A DNA stretch of 64,000 bases from Fodinicola acaciae (GTDB taxonomy: Bacteria; Actinomycetota; Actinomycetes; Mycobacteriales; HKI-0501): NCBI RefSeq assembly GCF_010993745.1, contig NZ_WOTN01000003.1:496001-560000 (forward strand). Reading direction: 5' to 3'. Positions 37,230 through 43,288 of this stretch are shown here, in pieces; within the stretch, counting starts at the first letter, position 1, and every line of letters begins with the position of its first letter. Below the pieces are notes generated by a model. That model did no database searches and was not told the DNA's origin. It worked only from the letters and a program-made list of their open reading frames with translations. The translations under genes and the position numbers were made by a program.

Positions 37230-37322
37230 GGCCGGAGACTACCGCCAGTTGGCGAGAACGGCCGGCTCGATGTCCGCCAGTTGTCGGCTGCGACGCCGGC
37301 CGGCGTCGGCGATCCTTGGACG

Positions 37323-38279
37323 ATGACATACGCATTCGATCCGGAACTCGCGCCGTGGGTGGAGATGCTTCCGAAGATCGACCTCACCGGCGTCGACATT
37401 CCCGCCATGCGCGCCGCGCAGCCGCCGGACTTCGCCGAGCTTTTCCAGAACGGCGCGTACGAGCCGGCGAACCCGCTGGACGTGCGCGACCTGACCATCC
37501 CCGGTCCGGCGGACAACCCCGACCTGCGTGTGCGGATTTACTCGCCGGCGAACGAGGAAACCGCGCGGCCCGGCCTGGTTTACATCCACGGTGGGGGTTT
37601 CGTCTTCGGCAGCATCGAGCAGATGGACCCGGCGACAACACAGATCGCTGACCAGCTGGGTATCGTCGTGGTGTCGGTCGAATATCGGCTCGCGCCGGAA
37701 AACCGGTTTCCGGCCGGTGTCGAGGATTGCTATGCCGCACTGCAGTGGACGGCGGCGAAAGCCAGCGAGCTTCGCATCGATCCGGACCGGATCGGCGTCG
37801 CCGGTTCGAGCGCCGGCGGCGGCCTCGCGGCCGCGGTCGCGTTGCTCGCAAGGGATCGCGGTGGTCCCCCGCTGAAAATTCAGGTGCTGGACGTGCCGGA
37901 GCTCGACGACCGGTTGGAAACCCCGTCGATGCACGCCTATCACGACACTCCATTGTGGAACCGGCCGAACGCCATCGTCAGCTGGCGCAGTTATCTGCCG
38001 GAGGGCGTGACACCTGGCAGCGACGGAGTTTCACCGTACGCGGCGCCATCTCGCGCCACCGATCTGTCCGGCCTGCCACGCGCGTATGTCAGCGTCTGCG
38101 AGTTCGACCCGCTCCGCGACGAGGGCATCGACTATGCTCAGCGGCTCGTCCAGGCTGGCGTGGCCACCGAGCTCCACCTCTATCCCGGCACTTTCCACGG
38201 GTCCGCGCTGATCGCGGCGGCCGCGGTGACCAAGCGGATGAACGCCGACAACCTGGCCTTTATCCAGCGTCATCTCTGA
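37323..38279 (+). CDS. HSL-family alpha/beta-hydrolase (esterase)
   Basis: Cytoplasmic esterase of 318 residues. The oxyanion motif HGGG is at 89-92, the nucleophile elbow GSSAG has Ser163, and Asp262 (CEFDPLRDEG) and His292 (GTFHGSA) complete the triad. It shows no signal peptide. The substrate is likely a short acyl ester. The last 20 bases overlap the end of the convergent ThDP decarboxylase gene. Confidence 0.93.
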   Translation: MTYAFDPELAPWVEMLPKIDLTGVDIPAMRAAQPPDFAELFQNGAYEPANPLDVRDLTIPGPADNPDLRVRIYSPANEETARPGLVYIHGGGFVFGSIEQMDPATTQIADQLGIVVVSVEYRLAPENRFPAGVEDCYAALQWTAAKASELRIDPDRIGVAGSSAGGGLAAAVALLARDRGGPPLKIQVLDVPELDDRLETPSMHAYHDTPLWNRPNAIVSWRSYLPEGVTPGSDGVSPYAAPSRATDLSGLPRAYVSVCEFDPLRDEGIDYAQRLVQAGVATELHLYPGTFHGSALIAAAAVTKRMNADNLAFIQRHL

Positions 38280-39834
38280 CGTGGATGAGCGTCGGGCGGT
38301 CAGCGGCCAAGGCGGTGGCGACAAGCGGCCCGATGTCGCCGCCGGCTGACACGCCATGGCAGCCGAGTGCCGTTGCCAGCGCCGGAAAATCCGGCCGGTC
38401 GAGATCGACGGCGTGGACCGGGTCGCCACGTTCGGCCATTTCGCGGCGAATTTCGCCGTAGCCACCGTTGTCCACCACCACGACCGGCAGCGGAAGCCGC
38501 AACTGCGCGGCCGTGGCCAGCTCCGCGACACTGAACATCAGGCCGCCATCTCCCTCGATCGCGACCACCGGAGTGTCCGGCTCGGCGAGTTTCGCGCCGA
38601 TCGCGGCCGGCAGCCCATAGCCGAGAGTCCCCAGTCCGGTCGGAAATAGGAAACACCCCGGCCGATAGCCCGGCAGATTGGACAACGCGCCGTAATAGCA
38701 GACCATCGCGTTGTCCGCCGCGACCACACCGCTGCGGCCGATGGCACTTGCGATGCCGTCCACAATGGACAACCAGCGCGAGCCCTCCGTACGCGCCTGG
38801 TCGCCGACGCGCCGTCGCCAACTGTCGGCGCGCTCGCGTTGACTTCCCTTTGGCTGGAGTGTCGCGGACAATGCGTCCAATGCGATCGACGCGTCCGCCA
38901 CGATCGACAGGTCCGGTGACGCGTTTGTCAGCAGCTGCGCCGGATCGACGTCGACCCGGATCAGCTTTCCGGAGAACGTCAGGCCGCCGTAGAAGAGATC
39001 GGCAGGTGCGAGCTCGGTACCAATCGCCAACACCACATCGCAGTCCTCGACGAAATCGCGCACGGCCGCACGGTGCAGGCCGGCGCCGAGAGACAGCGGA
39101 TGATCGTACGGCAGGATTCCTTTGCCGTTGGTGCTGGAAATCACCGGTGCCTGCAGCAGCTCGACCAACCGCCGCAACTCGTCCGCGGCATGTCGTACGC
39201 CGCCGCCGACAATGACGCCGGGTCGCCGCGCCGCGGCGAGAATGCCAGCCGCGGCACCGATAGATTTCCCGTCGGGCGGTGTCACGGCCACGTGGATCGG
39301 CCGCACCGCCCGGACGTCTTCGCTGCGGTCCAACAGATCCAGTGGCAGGTCCAGATGCCGTGGCCGTGGCCGGCCGGTGCGCAGGTCGGCGAACGCCTGA
39401 GCCACCGCGACCGGAATCTCACCTACACTGCGCACACGATGGCTGCCGGCGGTGACGGCAGCCATCGCCGCGCGTTGGTCCTTGACCTCGTGCAGCAGAC
39501 CGTTGCCGCGTCCGGGATGGTCGACCGGCATCGCCGGTGAAACGAACAACACCGGCACCGAGTCCGAATAAGCCTGTGCCGCGGCGGCGACCGCGTTCAG
39601 GATCGCCGGACCGGTGGTGGTCAGCACGACACCTGGCCGGCCGCTGACTCGTGCGTATCCATCGGCCGCGTATCCGGCACCTTGTTCGTGGCGCGTCAGC
39701 ACGTGGCGGATGCGGTATTTGCGCAGGTACGGATAGATCGGCAGGCTGTGCGTGCCGGGGATGCCGAAGACGGTGTCGACACCGTGTGCGGCCAGGCCGG
39801 CGACCAGCGCCTCGCCACCGGTCATGGTTGCCAT
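38260..39834 (-). CDS. ThDP-dependent 2-oxoacid decarboxylase (AruI-like)
   Basis: A 524-residue enzyme of the acetolactate synthase-like group often labelled 5-guanidino-2-oxopentanoate decarboxylase. It starts MATMTGGEALVAGLAAHGVDTVFGIPGTHSLPIYPYL and has the catalytic Glu in RHEQGAGYAADGYARV, GNGLLHEVKDQRAAMAAVTA and the cofactor motif EGDGGLMFSVAELATA ending in DNGGYGEI. Its ATG directly follows the stop of the amino-acid dehydrogenase, so the oxoacid made there is the likely substrate. 2-Ketoarginine or another amino-acid-derived oxoacid fits. Confidence 0.87.
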   Translation of the reverse strand: MATMTGGEALVAGLAAHGVDTVFGIPGTHSLPIYPYLRKYRIRHVLTRHEQGAGYAADGYARVSGRPGVVLTTTGPAILNAVAAAAQAYSDSVPVLFVSPAMPVDHPGRGNGLLHEVKDQRAAMAAVTAGSHRVRSVGEIPVAVAQAFADLRTGRPRPRHLDLPLDLLDRSEDVRAVRPIHVAVTPPDGKSIGAAAGILAAARRPGVIVGGGVRHAADELRRLVELLQAPVISSTNGKGILPYDHPLSLGAGLHRAAVRDFVEDCDVVLAIGTELAPADLFYGGLTFSGKLIRVDVDPAQLLTNASPDLSIVADASIALDALSATLQPKGSQRERADSWRRRVGDQARTEGSRWLSIVDGIASAIGRSGVVAADNAMVCYYGALSNLPGYRPGCFLFPTGLGTLGYGLPAAIGAKLAEPDTPVVAIEGDGGLMFSVAELATAAQLRLPLPVVVVDNGGYGEIRREMAERGDPVHAVDLDRPDFPALATALGCHGVSAGGDIGPLVATALAADRPTLIHVRDDAG

Positions 39835-40986
39835 TCAGGTCCCCAAATTTTGGTTTATCCGGTCCAGGTTGTCCTGCGCCAGAGCCAAAGCCGCCTCGCG
39901 TGGCGTGCCACCGCGCGCCAGCGTCGCCTCGACCAACGCGTGCATCTGCTTGTGAATCTTGCCAAACGCCGACTCCGCGGTCGGCTCGATGTCGCCGAAC
40001 AACGTCCACCACCACCAGGCGTTGGTCGCCGAGTTCGCGAGGAAATCGGGGATGACAATGACGCCTCGCTCGGCCAGCCGGCGCTCCGCCGCGATCGTCA
40101 CGGGCAGATTCGCCGCCTCGACAATGAGCTTCGCGGCGACTCGGTCGCAGTTGTGCTCGTCGATGCAGTAAGAAACGGCCGCGGGCACCAAAATGTCCGC
40201 CGGAATCGACAACCAGTCCTCGGCCGGCCGCGTACGGTCACCGGAGCACAACGCGGAGCGGTCGACGTCGCCGAGCGGATCCCGGTGCCGGAGCAGGTTT
40301 TCCACATCCAGGCCGGCTGGATTCGCGACGACGCCGTGACGATCGGCGACGGCCACCACGGAAACGCCGGAAGCGGCCAGATAGCGCGCGGTGGCACCAC
40401 CCATCGAGCCGAAACCCTGCACGACGGCGCGCACTGGTTTCGTGCTTTCGACAAGTGAAATCGCCGCCAGCGTCGCCTCGGCGACGCCGTAGCCGCCGAC
40501 CAGCTCGTCCAGTGGCACGCCGTCGACGCGTACGCAGAAGGCCGTCGCCAGCCTGGCACGTGCTTCGGATTCGTTGTCGAGCAACGGATAGACCGCCTGC
40601 ACCGAGCTTCCGATGCCGAGCTCGGCCAGCACCTCGTCGATGGTGTCCTGCCGCAGACCGAAATCCTCACCCATCGTCCACTGCCGCTCGATCAGCGGCC
40701 GCATCGCGGTGAGATAGCGCGCCAGGATCTCGCGCGCACGCGGATCGTACGGGTCGAAGTCGATGCCACCTTTCGCGCCGCCGAGCGGCACATAGCGACC
40801 GGCCGGATCGTAATGCAACGCCTCCTTCAGCGTCATGCCTTCGGCCAGGCCGCGCACTTCTTCGAGCGTGCAACCGGCCCGCATCCGCAGGCCACCACTG
40901 GCCACGCCGCGCACCAGCCGGTCGATCACCAGGAAACCGGTCGTGCCGGTGGCCGCGTCGGACCAGCGGAGCTCCAGGTAGGCCAT
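39835..40986 (-). CDS. Glu/Leu/Phe/Val-type amino-acid dehydrogenase
   Basis: NAD(P)-dependent oxidative deaminase of 383 residues. The N-terminal domain shows SGGLRMRAGCTLEEVRGLAEGMTLKEAL and the catalytic lysines in VPLGGAKGGIDFDP; the Rossmann domain has VQGFGSMGGATARYLAASG and VIPDFLANSATNAW. The amino acid is not certain. It opens an operon with the ThDP decarboxylase. The 20-bp palindrome just upstream is repeated before the divergent permease, tying all three to the TetR regulator. Confidence 0.9.
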   Translation of the reverse strand: MAYLELRWSDAATGTTGFLVIDRLVRGVASGGLRMRAGCTLEEVRGLAEGMTLKEALHYDPAGRYVPLGGAKGGIDFDPYDPRAREILARYLTAMRPLIERQWTMGEDFGLRQDTIDEVLAELGIGSSVQAVYPLLDNESEARARLATAFCVRVDGVPLDELVGGYGVAEATLAAISLVESTKPVRAVVQGFGSMGGATARYLAASGVSVVAVADRHGVVANPAGLDVENLLRHRDPLGDVDRSALCSGDRTRPAEDWLSIPADILVPAAVSYCIDEHNCDRVAAKLIVEAANLPVTIAAERRLAERGVIVIPDFLANSATNAWWWWTLFGDIEPTAESAFGKIHKQMHALVEATLARGGTPREAALALAQDNLDRINQNLGT

Positions 40987-41003
40987 CCGTTCCCCTCATC
41001 TGC

Positions 41004-41023
41004 TACTGACTCGCCAATCAGTA
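41004..41023. promoter_or_regulatory. TetR operator A (dehydrogenase operon)
   Basis: TACTGACT-CGCC-AATCAGTA, an 8-4-8 palindrome with one mismatch. It lies 18 bases upstream of the dehydrogenase start and matches operator B at 41695-41714. Confidence 0.85.
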
Positions 41024-41037
41024 TGCGCCGAGACGAC

Positions 41038-41631
41038 TCAGATGCCCAACTCGGCTTTCAGCGCGGTCTCCAGCCAGGCGGCGACCTCACGTTTGGTGAC
41101 GGCGCCGCGACGTACGACCAGCTGCACGGCGAATCCGTCCAGCAGCGAGGTGAGCCGCCAGGCCGCACCTCGCGGGTCGTCGCAACGAAACTCGCGCGTC
41201 GCAACGCCCTCGACGATGAGCGCGGCGACCGTCTCGCGCCAGCGCATGTCCAGTCGTTGCGCCACCCCGCCGAGCTCCGGGTCGCGCAGGCCGGCGGCCC
41301 ACGCCTCGATCCACAGCGTCCAGCCGGCCGCGTCGCCGGTCGGACCGTATTGCCGGAGCACCGCGCGCAGCCGTTTTTCCGCGCTGCCACCGGTCCTTTT
41401 GAGCGTACGTTCCAGCGCGGCAAGATCGGCCTCGGCCGCGGCCGCGAACGCCTCGGTGACCAGGTTTTCGATGGTGCCGAAGTGATAGAAGATCAGCGCC
41501 GTACTGATGCCGAGCGACTTGGCGATCTCCGCCGCGCGCGTGCCGGCGATGCCGCGCTCGCGCACCTGGTCGAGCGTCGCCGCGAGGATCTCGTCGCGCC
41601 GCACCGACACGGCCTTGCGTTCCCGTTCCAC
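41038..41631 (-). CDS. TetR-family regulator
   Basis: A 197-residue repressor with the HTH near residues 25-55 (GIAGTRAAEIAKSLGISTALIFYHFGTIENLV) and a variable ligand domain. The start is a GTG at 41631. It sits between the dehydrogenase operon and the permease, and the same 20-bp palindrome lies before both, so it very likely represses both. The ligand is probably the transported amino acid or its oxoacid (inference). Confidence 0.9.
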   Translation of the reverse strand: MERERKAVSVRRDEILAATLDQVRERGIAGTRAAEIAKSLGISTALIFYHFGTIENLVTEAFAAAAEADLAALERTLKRTGGSAEKRLRAVLRQYGPTGDAAGWTLWIEAWAAGLRDPELGGVAQRLDMRWRETVAALIVEGVATREFRCDDPRGAAWRLTSLLDGFAVQLVVRRGAVTKREVAAWLETALKAELGI

Positions 41632-41694
41632 GCCATGACGATACGTGCAGACCTTGACAACGGCAGGTCCGACCCGCAGAGTGGGCCTCCAAGT

Positions 41695-41714
41695 TACTGA
41701 TTACGCAATCAGTA
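41695..41714. promoter_or_regulatory. TetR operator B (permease)
   Basis: TACTGATT-ACGC-AATCAGTA is a perfect 8-4-8 palindrome ending 14 bases before the permease ATG. It shares 17 of 20 bases with operator A. Confidence 0.88.
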
Positions 41715-41728
41715 GTGAGAGGTGTCAG

Positions 41729-43288
41729 ATGGCCACCAGCCAGATGGACGAGACCACCACCAGCACCGGGCTCAGCCGGCGGTGGAACGCGCAACGAGCC
41801 AATCTCCGCAAGACGTTTCGCCGCTTCGACATCCTGTTTTTCCTGGTGTGCACGTTGGTCGGCCTGGACACCATCGGCTCGGTGGCGGCGCACGGTCCGC
41901 AGGGACTGACCTGGATGCTCGTGCTGGCGGTGGTGTTTTTCCTGCCGTACGGCCTGTTGGTGACCGAGCTGAGCACCGCGATCCCGGTCGAAGGCGGGCC
42001 GTACGTCTGGTCCAAGCTCGCCTTCGGCAAGCTGGTCGCCGCGGTCAACCAGGTGCTTTTCTGGCTGTCCAACCCGATCTGGGTCGGCGGCTCGCTGACC
42101 ATCCTCGCGGTGACCACGTTCCAGACGTTCTTCTTTCCACTGGAAGGGCCATGGAAATACGTCGGCGGCCTGGTCTTCATCTGGTCGACGGTGCTCGGCG
42201 TCCTCGCCGTCCTGCGGATCGGCAAATGGATTCCGACCGTCGGCGGCTTCGCTCGGATCATCATGCTCGCGTTTTTCGCCGTCACCACGGTCATCTACGG
42301 CATCCAGCACGGCTTCCAGCCGCTGACGGCCGGCGGCTTCGCACCGACGTACGTCGGATTCATCGCACTCGTGCCGGTGCTCATCTTCAACTACGTCGGT
42401 TTCGAACTGCCGAGCAACGCCGCCGAGGAGATGACCAATCCCCGGCGCGACATTCCGTTCGCCGTCCTGCGTTCGGGCATCGGCGCCGTTCTGCTTTACG
42501 GCGCACCCATTCTCGGCATCCTGCTGGTGCTGCCAGCGAAACAGATCAGCGGACTCGGCGGCTTTCTCGACGCGGTGAAGGCGGTTTTCACCGTGTACGG
42601 TGGAAACGTACACACCGACGGCACGGTGACCCTGTCCGGAGCCGGCCAGCTGCTCGCCGGCATCTGCGCGGCCGGCTTCATCATCGGCCTGATCACCAGC
42701 GGCGTCACCTGGTCGATGGGTGGCGACCGCGCCCAGGCCGTCGCCTGCACCGACGGCGCCGGCCCGGCCTGGCTCGGCGCGATCTCGCCGCGTTTCGGCA
42801 CACCGGTGCGGATCAACATCGTCTCCGGCATCGGATCGACCGTCGTGATGGTGCTGGCCTTCCTGCTCACCTCCGGCGACGGCCAGAAATACTTCGCGGC
42901 GGTGCTGGGGCTGGCGATCTCGACGACTTTCTTCACGTATCTGGCGATGTTTCCTGCTCTGGTGGTGCTGCGCCGGAAAATGCCTGACCTGCCGCGACCG
43001 TATCGCGTGCCCGGCGGCATGGTCGGCGCGTGGATCACCTCGACCATCACCACGGTCATGGTCGTCATCACCGTGCTCGTCCTGCTGTGGCCGGGTCTCG
43101 GGGTCGGTTGGTTCGGCAGCGGTGGAAACGCCGACGACTCACTCCCGACATCCTTTGCCGGACAACGGGTACCGTACACGCTGAGTCAGGTCGTACCGCT
43201 GCTGGTCATTGTCCTGATCGGTGTGGCATTCTATTTCGTCGGTCGCTACCAGACGCAGAAAGCGGACCGCGACCTCCTTCCCGACTAG
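41729..43288 (+). CDS. APC-superfamily amino-acid permease
   Basis: Membrane importer of 519 residues and 12 helices. It has the APC start RRFDILFFLVCTLVGLDTIGSVAAHGPQGLTW, the conserved ELSTAIPVEGGPYVWSKLAFG and VPVLIFNYVGFELPSNAAEEMTNPRRDIPFAVLRSG. The substrate is probably the amino acid processed by the dehydrogenase and decarboxylase, since all share the TetR operator. A decayed copy of its C-terminal coding region follows at 43325-43438. Confidence 0.9.
   Translation: MATSQMDETTTSTGLSRRWNAQRANLRKTFRRFDILFFLVCTLVGLDTIGSVAAHGPQGLTWMLVLAVVFFLPYGLLVTELSTAIPVEGGPYVWSKLAFGKLVAAVNQVLFWLSNPIWVGGSLTILAVTTFQTFFFPLEGPWKYVGGLVFIWSTVLGVLAVLRIGKWIPTVGGFARIIMLAFFAVTTVIYGIQHGFQPLTAGGFAPTYVGFIALVPVLIFNYVGFELPSNAAEEMTNPRRDIPFAVLRSGIGAVLLYGAPILGILLVLPAKQISGLGGFLDAVKAVFTVYGGNVHTDGTVTLSGAGQLLAGICAAGFIIGLITSGVTWSMGGDRAQAVACTDGAGPAWLGAISPRFGTPVRINIVSGIGSTVVMVLAFLLTSGDGQKYFAAVLGLAISTTFFTYLAMFPALVVLRRKMPDLPRPYRVPGGMVGAWITSTITTVMVVITVLVLLWPGLGVGWFGSGGNADDSLPTSFAGQRVPYTLSQVVPLLVIVLIGVAFYFVGRYQTQKADRDLLPD

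Follow-up and report, generated by a model that had tools for sequence, protein, structure and literature searches.

The soil actinobacterium Fodinicola acaciae carries, on contig NZ_WOTN01000003.1, a group of genes in which a TetR-family regulator lies between an amino acid permease and a predicted catabolic operon. This group was analysed within a stretch of 64,000 nucleotides (the window) of the 8.86 Mb genome. An ELFV-superfamily amino acid dehydrogenase of 383 amino acids (39835..40986, minus strand) is followed by a putative thiamine diphosphate (ThDP)-dependent 2-oxo acid decarboxylase of 524 amino acids that resembles AruI and PRK07524 (38260..39834, minus strand). Because the reading frames of both genes abut, they probably form a single operon. 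On the same strand lies tetR (41038..41631), encoding a presumed repressor of 197 amino acids with a BetI-type C-terminal domain. The permease gene is divergent to tetR (41729..43288, plus strand) and encodes an APC-superfamily protein of 519 amino acids when read from the probable ATG at 41729. A promoter scan gave no sigma-70-like site over its threshold.

The regulator matches the Pfam domains TetR_N (PF00440; 40.2 bits, cut-off 24) and TetR_C_6 (73.8 bits), and stays below the BetI model (53.4 compared with 201.3 bits). The permease matches Pfam AA_permease_2 with 146.3 bits. Its solved relatives are distant, the best in the PDB being GadC (4dji, E 4.7e-15).

Two palindromes flank tetR

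Two operator-like palindromes were found next to tetR. Site 1, TACTGACT-CGCC-AATCAGTA (41004..41023; in full TACTGACTCGCCAATCAGTA), lies between tetR and the dehydrogenase gene, upstream of the dehydrogenase-ThDP operon, and is separated from the dehydrogenase ATG by 17 bases. Site 2, TACTGATT-ACGC-AATCAGTA (41695..41714; in full TACTGATTACGCAATCAGTA), lies in the promoter region shared by the divergent tetR and permease genes; 14 bases lie between it and the permease ATG, and 63 between it and the tetR start. An earlier note on this DNA had described palindromes that flank tetR and precede the dehydrogenase-ThDP pair and the permease, and both these and its gene order and coordinates are exactly as given there.

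With up to three mismatches allowed, the two sites are the sole matching places in the window. Counted by strand, this corresponds to four matches, compared with 0.17 in shuffled sequences (standard deviation 0.47, largest 2). In the whole genome, exact TACTGA-N8-TCAGTA occurs only at the two window sites, and a genome-wide scan gave no site with one mismatch, so that there are no further sites at zero or one mismatch. At two mismatches, 39 more places were found. These look like background, because a letter-reversed control pattern gives 71 places per strand at equal tolerance. Elsewhere in this genome, two near-identical palindromes with a common CTTATCGATCGAT core lie 17 bp apart (G000:C4:1092522-1092541 and 1092559-1092578) and are probably operators of another regulator.

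The operator-like site is conserved in relatives

Relatives were collected by querying a one-genome-per-species collection with the dehydrogenase, which gave 252 encoding stretches, and the best 80 were kept (loci L031-L110). The titled organisms are all actinobacteria, with 31 titled Streptomyces and many Lentzea, and include Fodinicola feengrottensis (80% identity). In these loci the half-site pair ACTGA-N8-TCAGT was counted, with 400 bp taken as the upstream region of each dehydrogenase. These upstream regions, 32,000 bases in all, contain 42 copies of the pair, and the remaining 982,902 bases contain 13. The enrichment is 99-fold, a value inflated by kinship among the loci. Of the 80 loci, 41 carry a copy in this 400-bp region. 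The reversed-letter control occurs nowhere in the 80 loci, compared with 55 real sites. All but one of these sites (54 of 55) are found at most 250 bp ahead of the start, extrapolated from tblastn, of a gene for the dehydrogenase, the permease, TetR, the ThDP enzyme, an acyl-CoA dehydrogenase (ACAD) or a metallo-beta-lactamase (MBL)-fold hydrolase.

A clear TetR homologue (at least 130 bits) is found in 50 of the 80 loci, and in 32 of these 50 a site lies no more than 400 bp from the dehydrogenase. The site between tetR and the divergent permease is also present in L031, L087, L093, L095, L097, L104 and L106. In L081 an operator-like site precedes ACAD by 124 bp, followed by the ThDP and dehydrogenase genes on the same strand. 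L073 has a site near ACAD, the frame of which is shortened there. Exact sites occur in the genomes of five of ten relatives, four of them at the dehydrogenase by coordinates and one (G066:C2:623351) away from it. The control pattern has a single occurrence in these ten genomes. From this conservation we infer that the window TetR binds both palindromes. The single local TetR regulon of permease, tetR and dehydrogenase-ThDP operon, as proposed in the earlier note, is thus backed by operator conservation across relatives.

The dehydrogenase has a glutamate dehydrogenase fold and a probably altered pocket

The dehydrogenase matches both ELFV Pfam domains (ELFV_dehydrog and ELFV_dehydrog_N). Its AlphaFold2 model (predicted local distance difference test score 92.3, predicted TM-score 0.91) aligns best with glutamate dehydrogenases (GDHs), with 4xgi giving a VIA-align Z of 41.3 and a root-mean-square deviation of 3.0 over 348 aligned residues. 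Curated GDH models are not reached by its sequence, the best giving 131.3 bits against a cut-off of 620. A tryptophan dehydrogenase (ScyB) model gives 28.1 bits (cut-off 600), and the protein weakly matches a tryptophan dehydrogenase (E 6.4e-8) and a leucine dehydrogenase (E 1.7e-4) in the PDB.

Among 24 aligned family members, S30, K54, K72, D108, N318, S319, T321, N322 and W324-W327 are invariant, and an NS.TN.WWWW motif is present. We take K54, K72 and D108 to be the equivalents of K113, K125 and D165 of Clostridium symbiosum GDH. Ser30 aligns with the lysine of the PAKGG segment of the Thermotoga enzyme. This position presumably corresponds to K89 of the C. symbiosum enzyme, which binds the gamma-carboxylate of glutamate, and W325 presumably takes the position of S380. 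Thus the fold and, by our assignment, the catalytic lysines and aspartate of a GDH are found, whereas the gamma-carboxylate lysine is replaced by Ser30. Because K54, K72 and D108 are conserved, yet S30 stands for K89 and W325 for S380, the protein is probably an active amino acid dehydrogenase without specificity for glutamate.

In its own order the gene is rare, with a match of at least 80% in 2 of 61 genomes and next best matches of at most 46%. The earlier note had called a dehydrogenase followed by an AruI-like decarboxylase an uncommon route. This agrees with the rarity in the order, but it holds only in a relative sense, given 252 encoding stretches and 22 of the 80 kept loci with a ThDP match nearby.

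The ThDP enzyme is a borderline AruI relative

The ThDP enzyme shows the three Pfam domains TPP_enzyme_N, TPP_enzyme_M and TPP_enzyme_C, and its gene adjoins the dehydrogenase gene in some relatives. Its best family is NF005712, 5-guanidino-2-oxopentanoate decarboxylase (PRK07524), with 503.6 bits just over the cut-off of 500. The 25 families listed include acetolactate synthase models, whose scores are far under their own cut-offs. The enzyme is about 41% identical to members from Shinella and Sinorhizobium, and the Shinella protein (41.6% identity) reaches 655 bits on the same model. The term AruI-like decarboxylase, used previously for this protein, therefore stands as to the cut-off, though as a borderline case. 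Since the likeness to AruI is borderline, arginine is only one substrate candidate.

In the locus of Lentzea atacamensis (L040, 419-1989), the ThDP gene matches as two overlapping pieces in different frames, a possible loss of this step or an assembly error. No other Lentzea-titled locus has a ThDP match within the stretch examined. In the window, the 3' end of the ThDP gene is convergently overlapped by that of an alpha/beta-hydrolase gene of the hormone-sensitive lipase type (37245-38279), which is probably unrelated.

Linked genes point to a longer pathway

Neighbours of the dehydrogenase were counted in the 80 loci with author-chosen bit-score thresholds. Besides TetR (50 loci), they comprise the MBL-fold hydrolase (26), the ThDP enzyme (22), an APC permease on the opposite strand (22, at least 300 bits), an ADP-forming acyl-CoA synthetase (ACS; 21) and ACAD (16). 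Rarer neighbours are a short-chain dehydrogenase/reductase (SDR; 6), a SolA-like oxidase (4), an amine oxidase (3), an S-methylmethionine-permease-like protein (3) and an aldehyde dehydrogenase (2). Two annotated Streptomyces plasmids carry ACS, SDR, ThDP and ACAD genes in a row, divergent from the SolA-like oxidase and dehydrogenase genes.

Co-occurrence was counted in 150 genomes from the family of a Kibdelosporangium genome, with author-chosen E-value limits. The dehydrogenase was found in 22 of these genomes. ACS is present in 21 and shared with the dehydrogenase in 16 (3.1 expected), ACAD in 19 and shared in 15 (2.8 expected), and the ThDP enzyme in 11 and shared in 10 (1.6 expected). The corresponding Fisher p-values, which ignore kinship, are 9e-13, 3e-12 and 6e-9.

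The F. acaciae genome itself contains adjacent homologues of ACS (54%) and ACAD (79%) together with a second TetR, in a minus-strand run about 123 kb from the regulon (G000:C3:407095-410878; L132:8096-11879). Judged by homologues that neighbour the dehydrogenase in relatives, this run is likely the downstream half of the pathway. The second TetR is 53-60% identical to regulators near the dehydrogenase in L047, L065 and L090 (Kibdelosporangium), L060 (titled Rhodococcus), L050 (Lentzea) and L076 (Amycolatopsis). Because in relatives the dehydrogenase is linked to ACS and ACAD, which form a pair in this genome, the pathway most likely extends beyond the window regulon, which would make up its first half. 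The aldehyde, at which the earlier note had ended the sequence of activities, is for the same reason an unlikely endpoint.

Three further arrangements were seen around these neighbours. The NAPE-PLD-like metallo-hydrolase gene of Streptomyces (for example upstream of the dehydrogenase in L074 and L109) is divergent, with an operator-like site in between in 22 cases. The family genomes G162 and G200 lack the dehydrogenase but have adjacent genes for ACAD, ACS and a dienoyl-CoA-reductase-type SDR, a trio that can thus take part in some other route. One Streptomyces plasmid carries, about 6 kb from its ThDP operon, a cluster with genes for a 3-keto-5-aminohexanoate cleavage protein, a thioesterase, an SDR, a TetR and a sodium:solute symporter (L121:22629-27000), which to us is reminiscent of carnitine breakdown.

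Proposed regulon and pathway

From gene content, family membership, the conserved operator-like site, linkage and co-occurrence, we infer the following reactions and mode of induction. TetR bound to the two palindromes would repress the permease gene, its own gene and the dehydrogenase-ThDP operon, and would probably be released by an imported amino acid or by its oxo acid. Judged by its family, the permease would import an amino acid. The GDH-fold enzyme would then use NAD(P)+ to deaminate it oxidatively, and the ThDP enzyme would decarboxylate the resulting 2-oxo acid, leaving an aldehyde with one carbon less. An aldehyde dehydrogenase whose gene lies elsewhere could oxidize this aldehyde to the acid, which the ADP-forming ACS would activate to the CoA ester for oxidation by the short-chain ACAD, both presumably supplied here by the separate ACS-ACAD-TetR run. 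We consider it fairly likely that the locus is a self-contained, TetR-controlled catabolic regulon and part of a conserved module leading from amino acid to oxo acid, aldehyde, acid and acyl-CoA. An engineered route of similar logic, in which lysine oxidase and an alpha-ketoacid decarboxylase lead to 5-aminovalerate, is described in PMC7900509.

Several observations weigh against this proposal. Half-site pairs within 400 bp of the dehydrogenase are absent from 39 of the 80 loci, and nine of the 30 loci without a clear TetR homologue show a site near the dehydrogenase. The enrichment and the p-values are overstated because the related loci (31 Streptomyces, many Lentzea) are not independent. 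No ThDP match lies within the stretch examined in 58 of the 80 loci, and at E<=1e-110 none is found in eight of the 16 family genomes that have both dehydrogenase and ACS. Four of the 22 dehydrogenase-positive family genomes have none of ACS, ACAD and ThDP enzyme. The window operon contains no aldehyde dehydrogenase. Finally, the NAPE-PLD-like MBL hydrolase near the dehydrogenase in 26 of the 80 loci, all titled Streptomyces (26 of 31), is left unexplained by the scheme. Because no match is seen for the ThDP enzyme in eight of 16 genomes and for all three partners in four of 22, individual steps can be absent or replaced. The locus is solid as a conserved regulon, and its chemistry is less settled.

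Candidate substrates

The substrate is probably not glutamate. Our leading guess, held tentatively, is a polar and perhaps basic or onium-bearing amino acid, arginine included. Pointers in this direction are the AruI-family ThDP enzyme, the L093 permease, the SolA-like oxidases in a few loci and the polar-amino-acid and polyamine ABC permease genes near the dehydrogenase in L101. The L101 transporters are mixed, as they include one of dicarboxylate/glutamate symporter type, and each scores under its model cut-off. Against the guess stand an ACS that lacks the residues of DddX, the rarity of the SDR, aldehyde dehydrogenases that differ by locus, and the fact that ACS and ACAD fit many short acids. 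A GDH-fold enzyme without the glutamate lysine and with a Trp-rich motif, acting on a basic or onium amino acid, would open an undescribed actinobacterial route of deamination, ThDP-dependent decarboxylation, aldehyde oxidation, CoA activation and ACAD oxidation under one TetR operator. Taken as a whole, we regard this as possible but somewhat unlikely. Searches of the open-access (PMC) literature turned up no account of this gene set.

The aldehyde dehydrogenases were considered as a clue to a cationic aldehyde. This clue is weakened, as the enzymes differ among L043, L076 and L106. That of L043 passes the aminobutyraldehyde model (697.5 bits, cut-off 615), yet lies outside any evident operon. 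In L076 the gene is part of a permease-aldehyde dehydrogenase-ACS run, and its nearest model is succinate-semialdehyde dehydrogenase (431 bits, below the cut-off of 730). The L106 gene is cut by the locus end and its product is below cut-off. Two close aldehyde dehydrogenase homologues in this genome (69-70%) lie, judged by eye, beside Pot-type polyamine transporter genes. The one just beyond the window end (G000:C3:561828-563231; L126, L133) is of the aminobutyraldehyde dehydrogenase type (700 bits, cut-off 615) and lies beside apparent polyamine ABC-transporter genes, and the second, at G000:C1:2692123, has a similar setting.

Arginine, onium compounds and neutral amino acids are mostly alternative substrates inside the proposed scheme. 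From a neutral amino acid (such as methionine, homoserine or a branched-chain amino acid), a short acyl-CoA could be formed with methional, 3-hydroxypropanal or a branched aldehyde as the intermediate. In favour of this, the relatives of the ACS include 3-hydroxypropionate- and 4-hydroxybutyrate-CoA ligases, and the ACAD is nearest to acryloyl-CoA reductase and short-chain acyl-CoA dehydrogenases. However, the dehydrogenase scores much closer to glutamate dehydrogenases than to the leucine/tryptophan dehydrogenase branch. The 50 fold matches listed for its model are GDH or phosphinothricin dehydrogenase, although absence from this list excludes nothing, and a tryptophan where GDH presumably has the serine may narrow the pocket. 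Overall, we consider a neutral substrate unlikely.

If arginine were the substrate, the dehydrogenase would replace AruH in forming 2-ketoarginine, and the ThDP enzyme would be a true AruI leading to 4-guanidinobutyraldehyde and on to 4-guanidinobutyrate. The family assignment of the ThDP enzyme is consistent with this, as is the annotation of its homologues on two Streptomyces plasmids as 5-guanidino-2-oxopentanoate decarboxylase. The narrow score and the identity of about 41% to the Shinella and Sinorhizobium members argue against it. Moreover, once 4-guanidinobutyrate is formed there is no obvious use for the linked ACS and ACAD, and at the mappable pocket positions S30, N322 and W325 (a mapping we partly presume) no acidic residue takes the place of the glutamate-binding lysine. 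We therefore regard the arginine route as quite improbable.

Very improbable, in our estimate, is an onium route, in which S-methylmethionine would yield the aldehyde of dimethylsulfoniopropionate (DMSP) and then DMSP, or trimethyllysine would yield 5-trimethylaminovalerate, followed by CoA activation and loss of dimethyl sulfide or trimethylamine, with the Trp motif cradling the onium group. The divergent permease of L093, with homologues in L097 and L106, is best against an S-methylmethionine permease model (491.7 bits, below the cut-off of 716), but this similarity is generic. SolA-like oxidases adjoin the dehydrogenase in a few loci, and the ACS matches, among others, the DMSP lyase DddX (7cm9). 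In an alignment with hand-counted positions, the ACS of L097 has none of the DddX residues Trp391, Glu432 and Phe435 (PMC8163506), and for this reason DMSP/S-methylmethionine was dropped as a firm answer. The SDR beside ACS in L121 and L097 is nearest to 2,4-dienoyl-CoA reductase (298.1 bits, cut-off 318), and that of L121 reads S-A-A-A-K against S-A-S-A-K in aligned DECR1. Yet the SDR is found in only six of the 80 loci and in none of the 22 dehydrogenase-positive family genomes, and the two of 150 with SDR beside ACS and ACAD have no dehydrogenase. Because this reductase is so rare, trimethyllysine breakdown via a dienoyl-CoA was demoted to a part of the onium route. The bacterial trimethyllysine conversion reported in PMC11773067 runs via DavB/DavA.

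A biosynthetic or detoxifying role, either acetolactate-synthase-like ligation or GDH activity for ammonium with an incidental permease, is highly unlikely: the ThDP enzyme does match acetolactate synthases (E 1e-88), but the listed models of these enzymes are far under their cut-offs, and the permease and the ACS/ACAD linkage point to catabolism.

Comparison with known systems

The locus adds a defined module, probably for amino acid catabolism, with a recognisable operator, that recurs across actinobacteria. Its dehydrogenase may represent a new specificity class in a well-studied superfamily and could be useful for biocatalysis or biosensing. Automatic names such as glutamate dehydrogenase-like or 5-guanidino-2-oxopentanoate decarboxylase may mislead here.

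With the hexameric glutamate dehydrogenases of the ELFV superfamily, the window enzyme shares the fold and, by our assignment, the catalytic lysine and aspartate positions. In contrast, it is shorter (383 amino acids), has serine in place of the gamma-carboxylate lysine and carries NS.TN.WWWW at the pocket helix. The regulator resembles BetI and other local TetR repressors in its TetR_N domain, BetI-type C-terminal domain and palindromes in divergent promoters, whereas it is far under the BetI model cut-off and would control different genes. The linked ACS, encoded outside the window, belongs to the same superfamily as DddX and other ADP-forming acyl-CoA synthetases, with the phosphohistidine segment aligned; the three DddX residues are missing from the L097 protein. 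Of the known systems, the AruH/AruI arginine transaminase pathway comes closest. There, an amino acid is likewise converted to the 2-oxo acid and then decarboxylated by a ThDP enzyme of the same NCBIfam subfamily. Here, no AruH-type aminotransferase lies in the window operon and the ELFV dehydrogenase takes its place, within a TetR regulon with an APC permease and with a borderline AruI score. What distinguishes this system from the arginine route is the dehydrogenase in place of the transaminase and the CoA activation that, with the linked ACS and ACAD, appears to follow.

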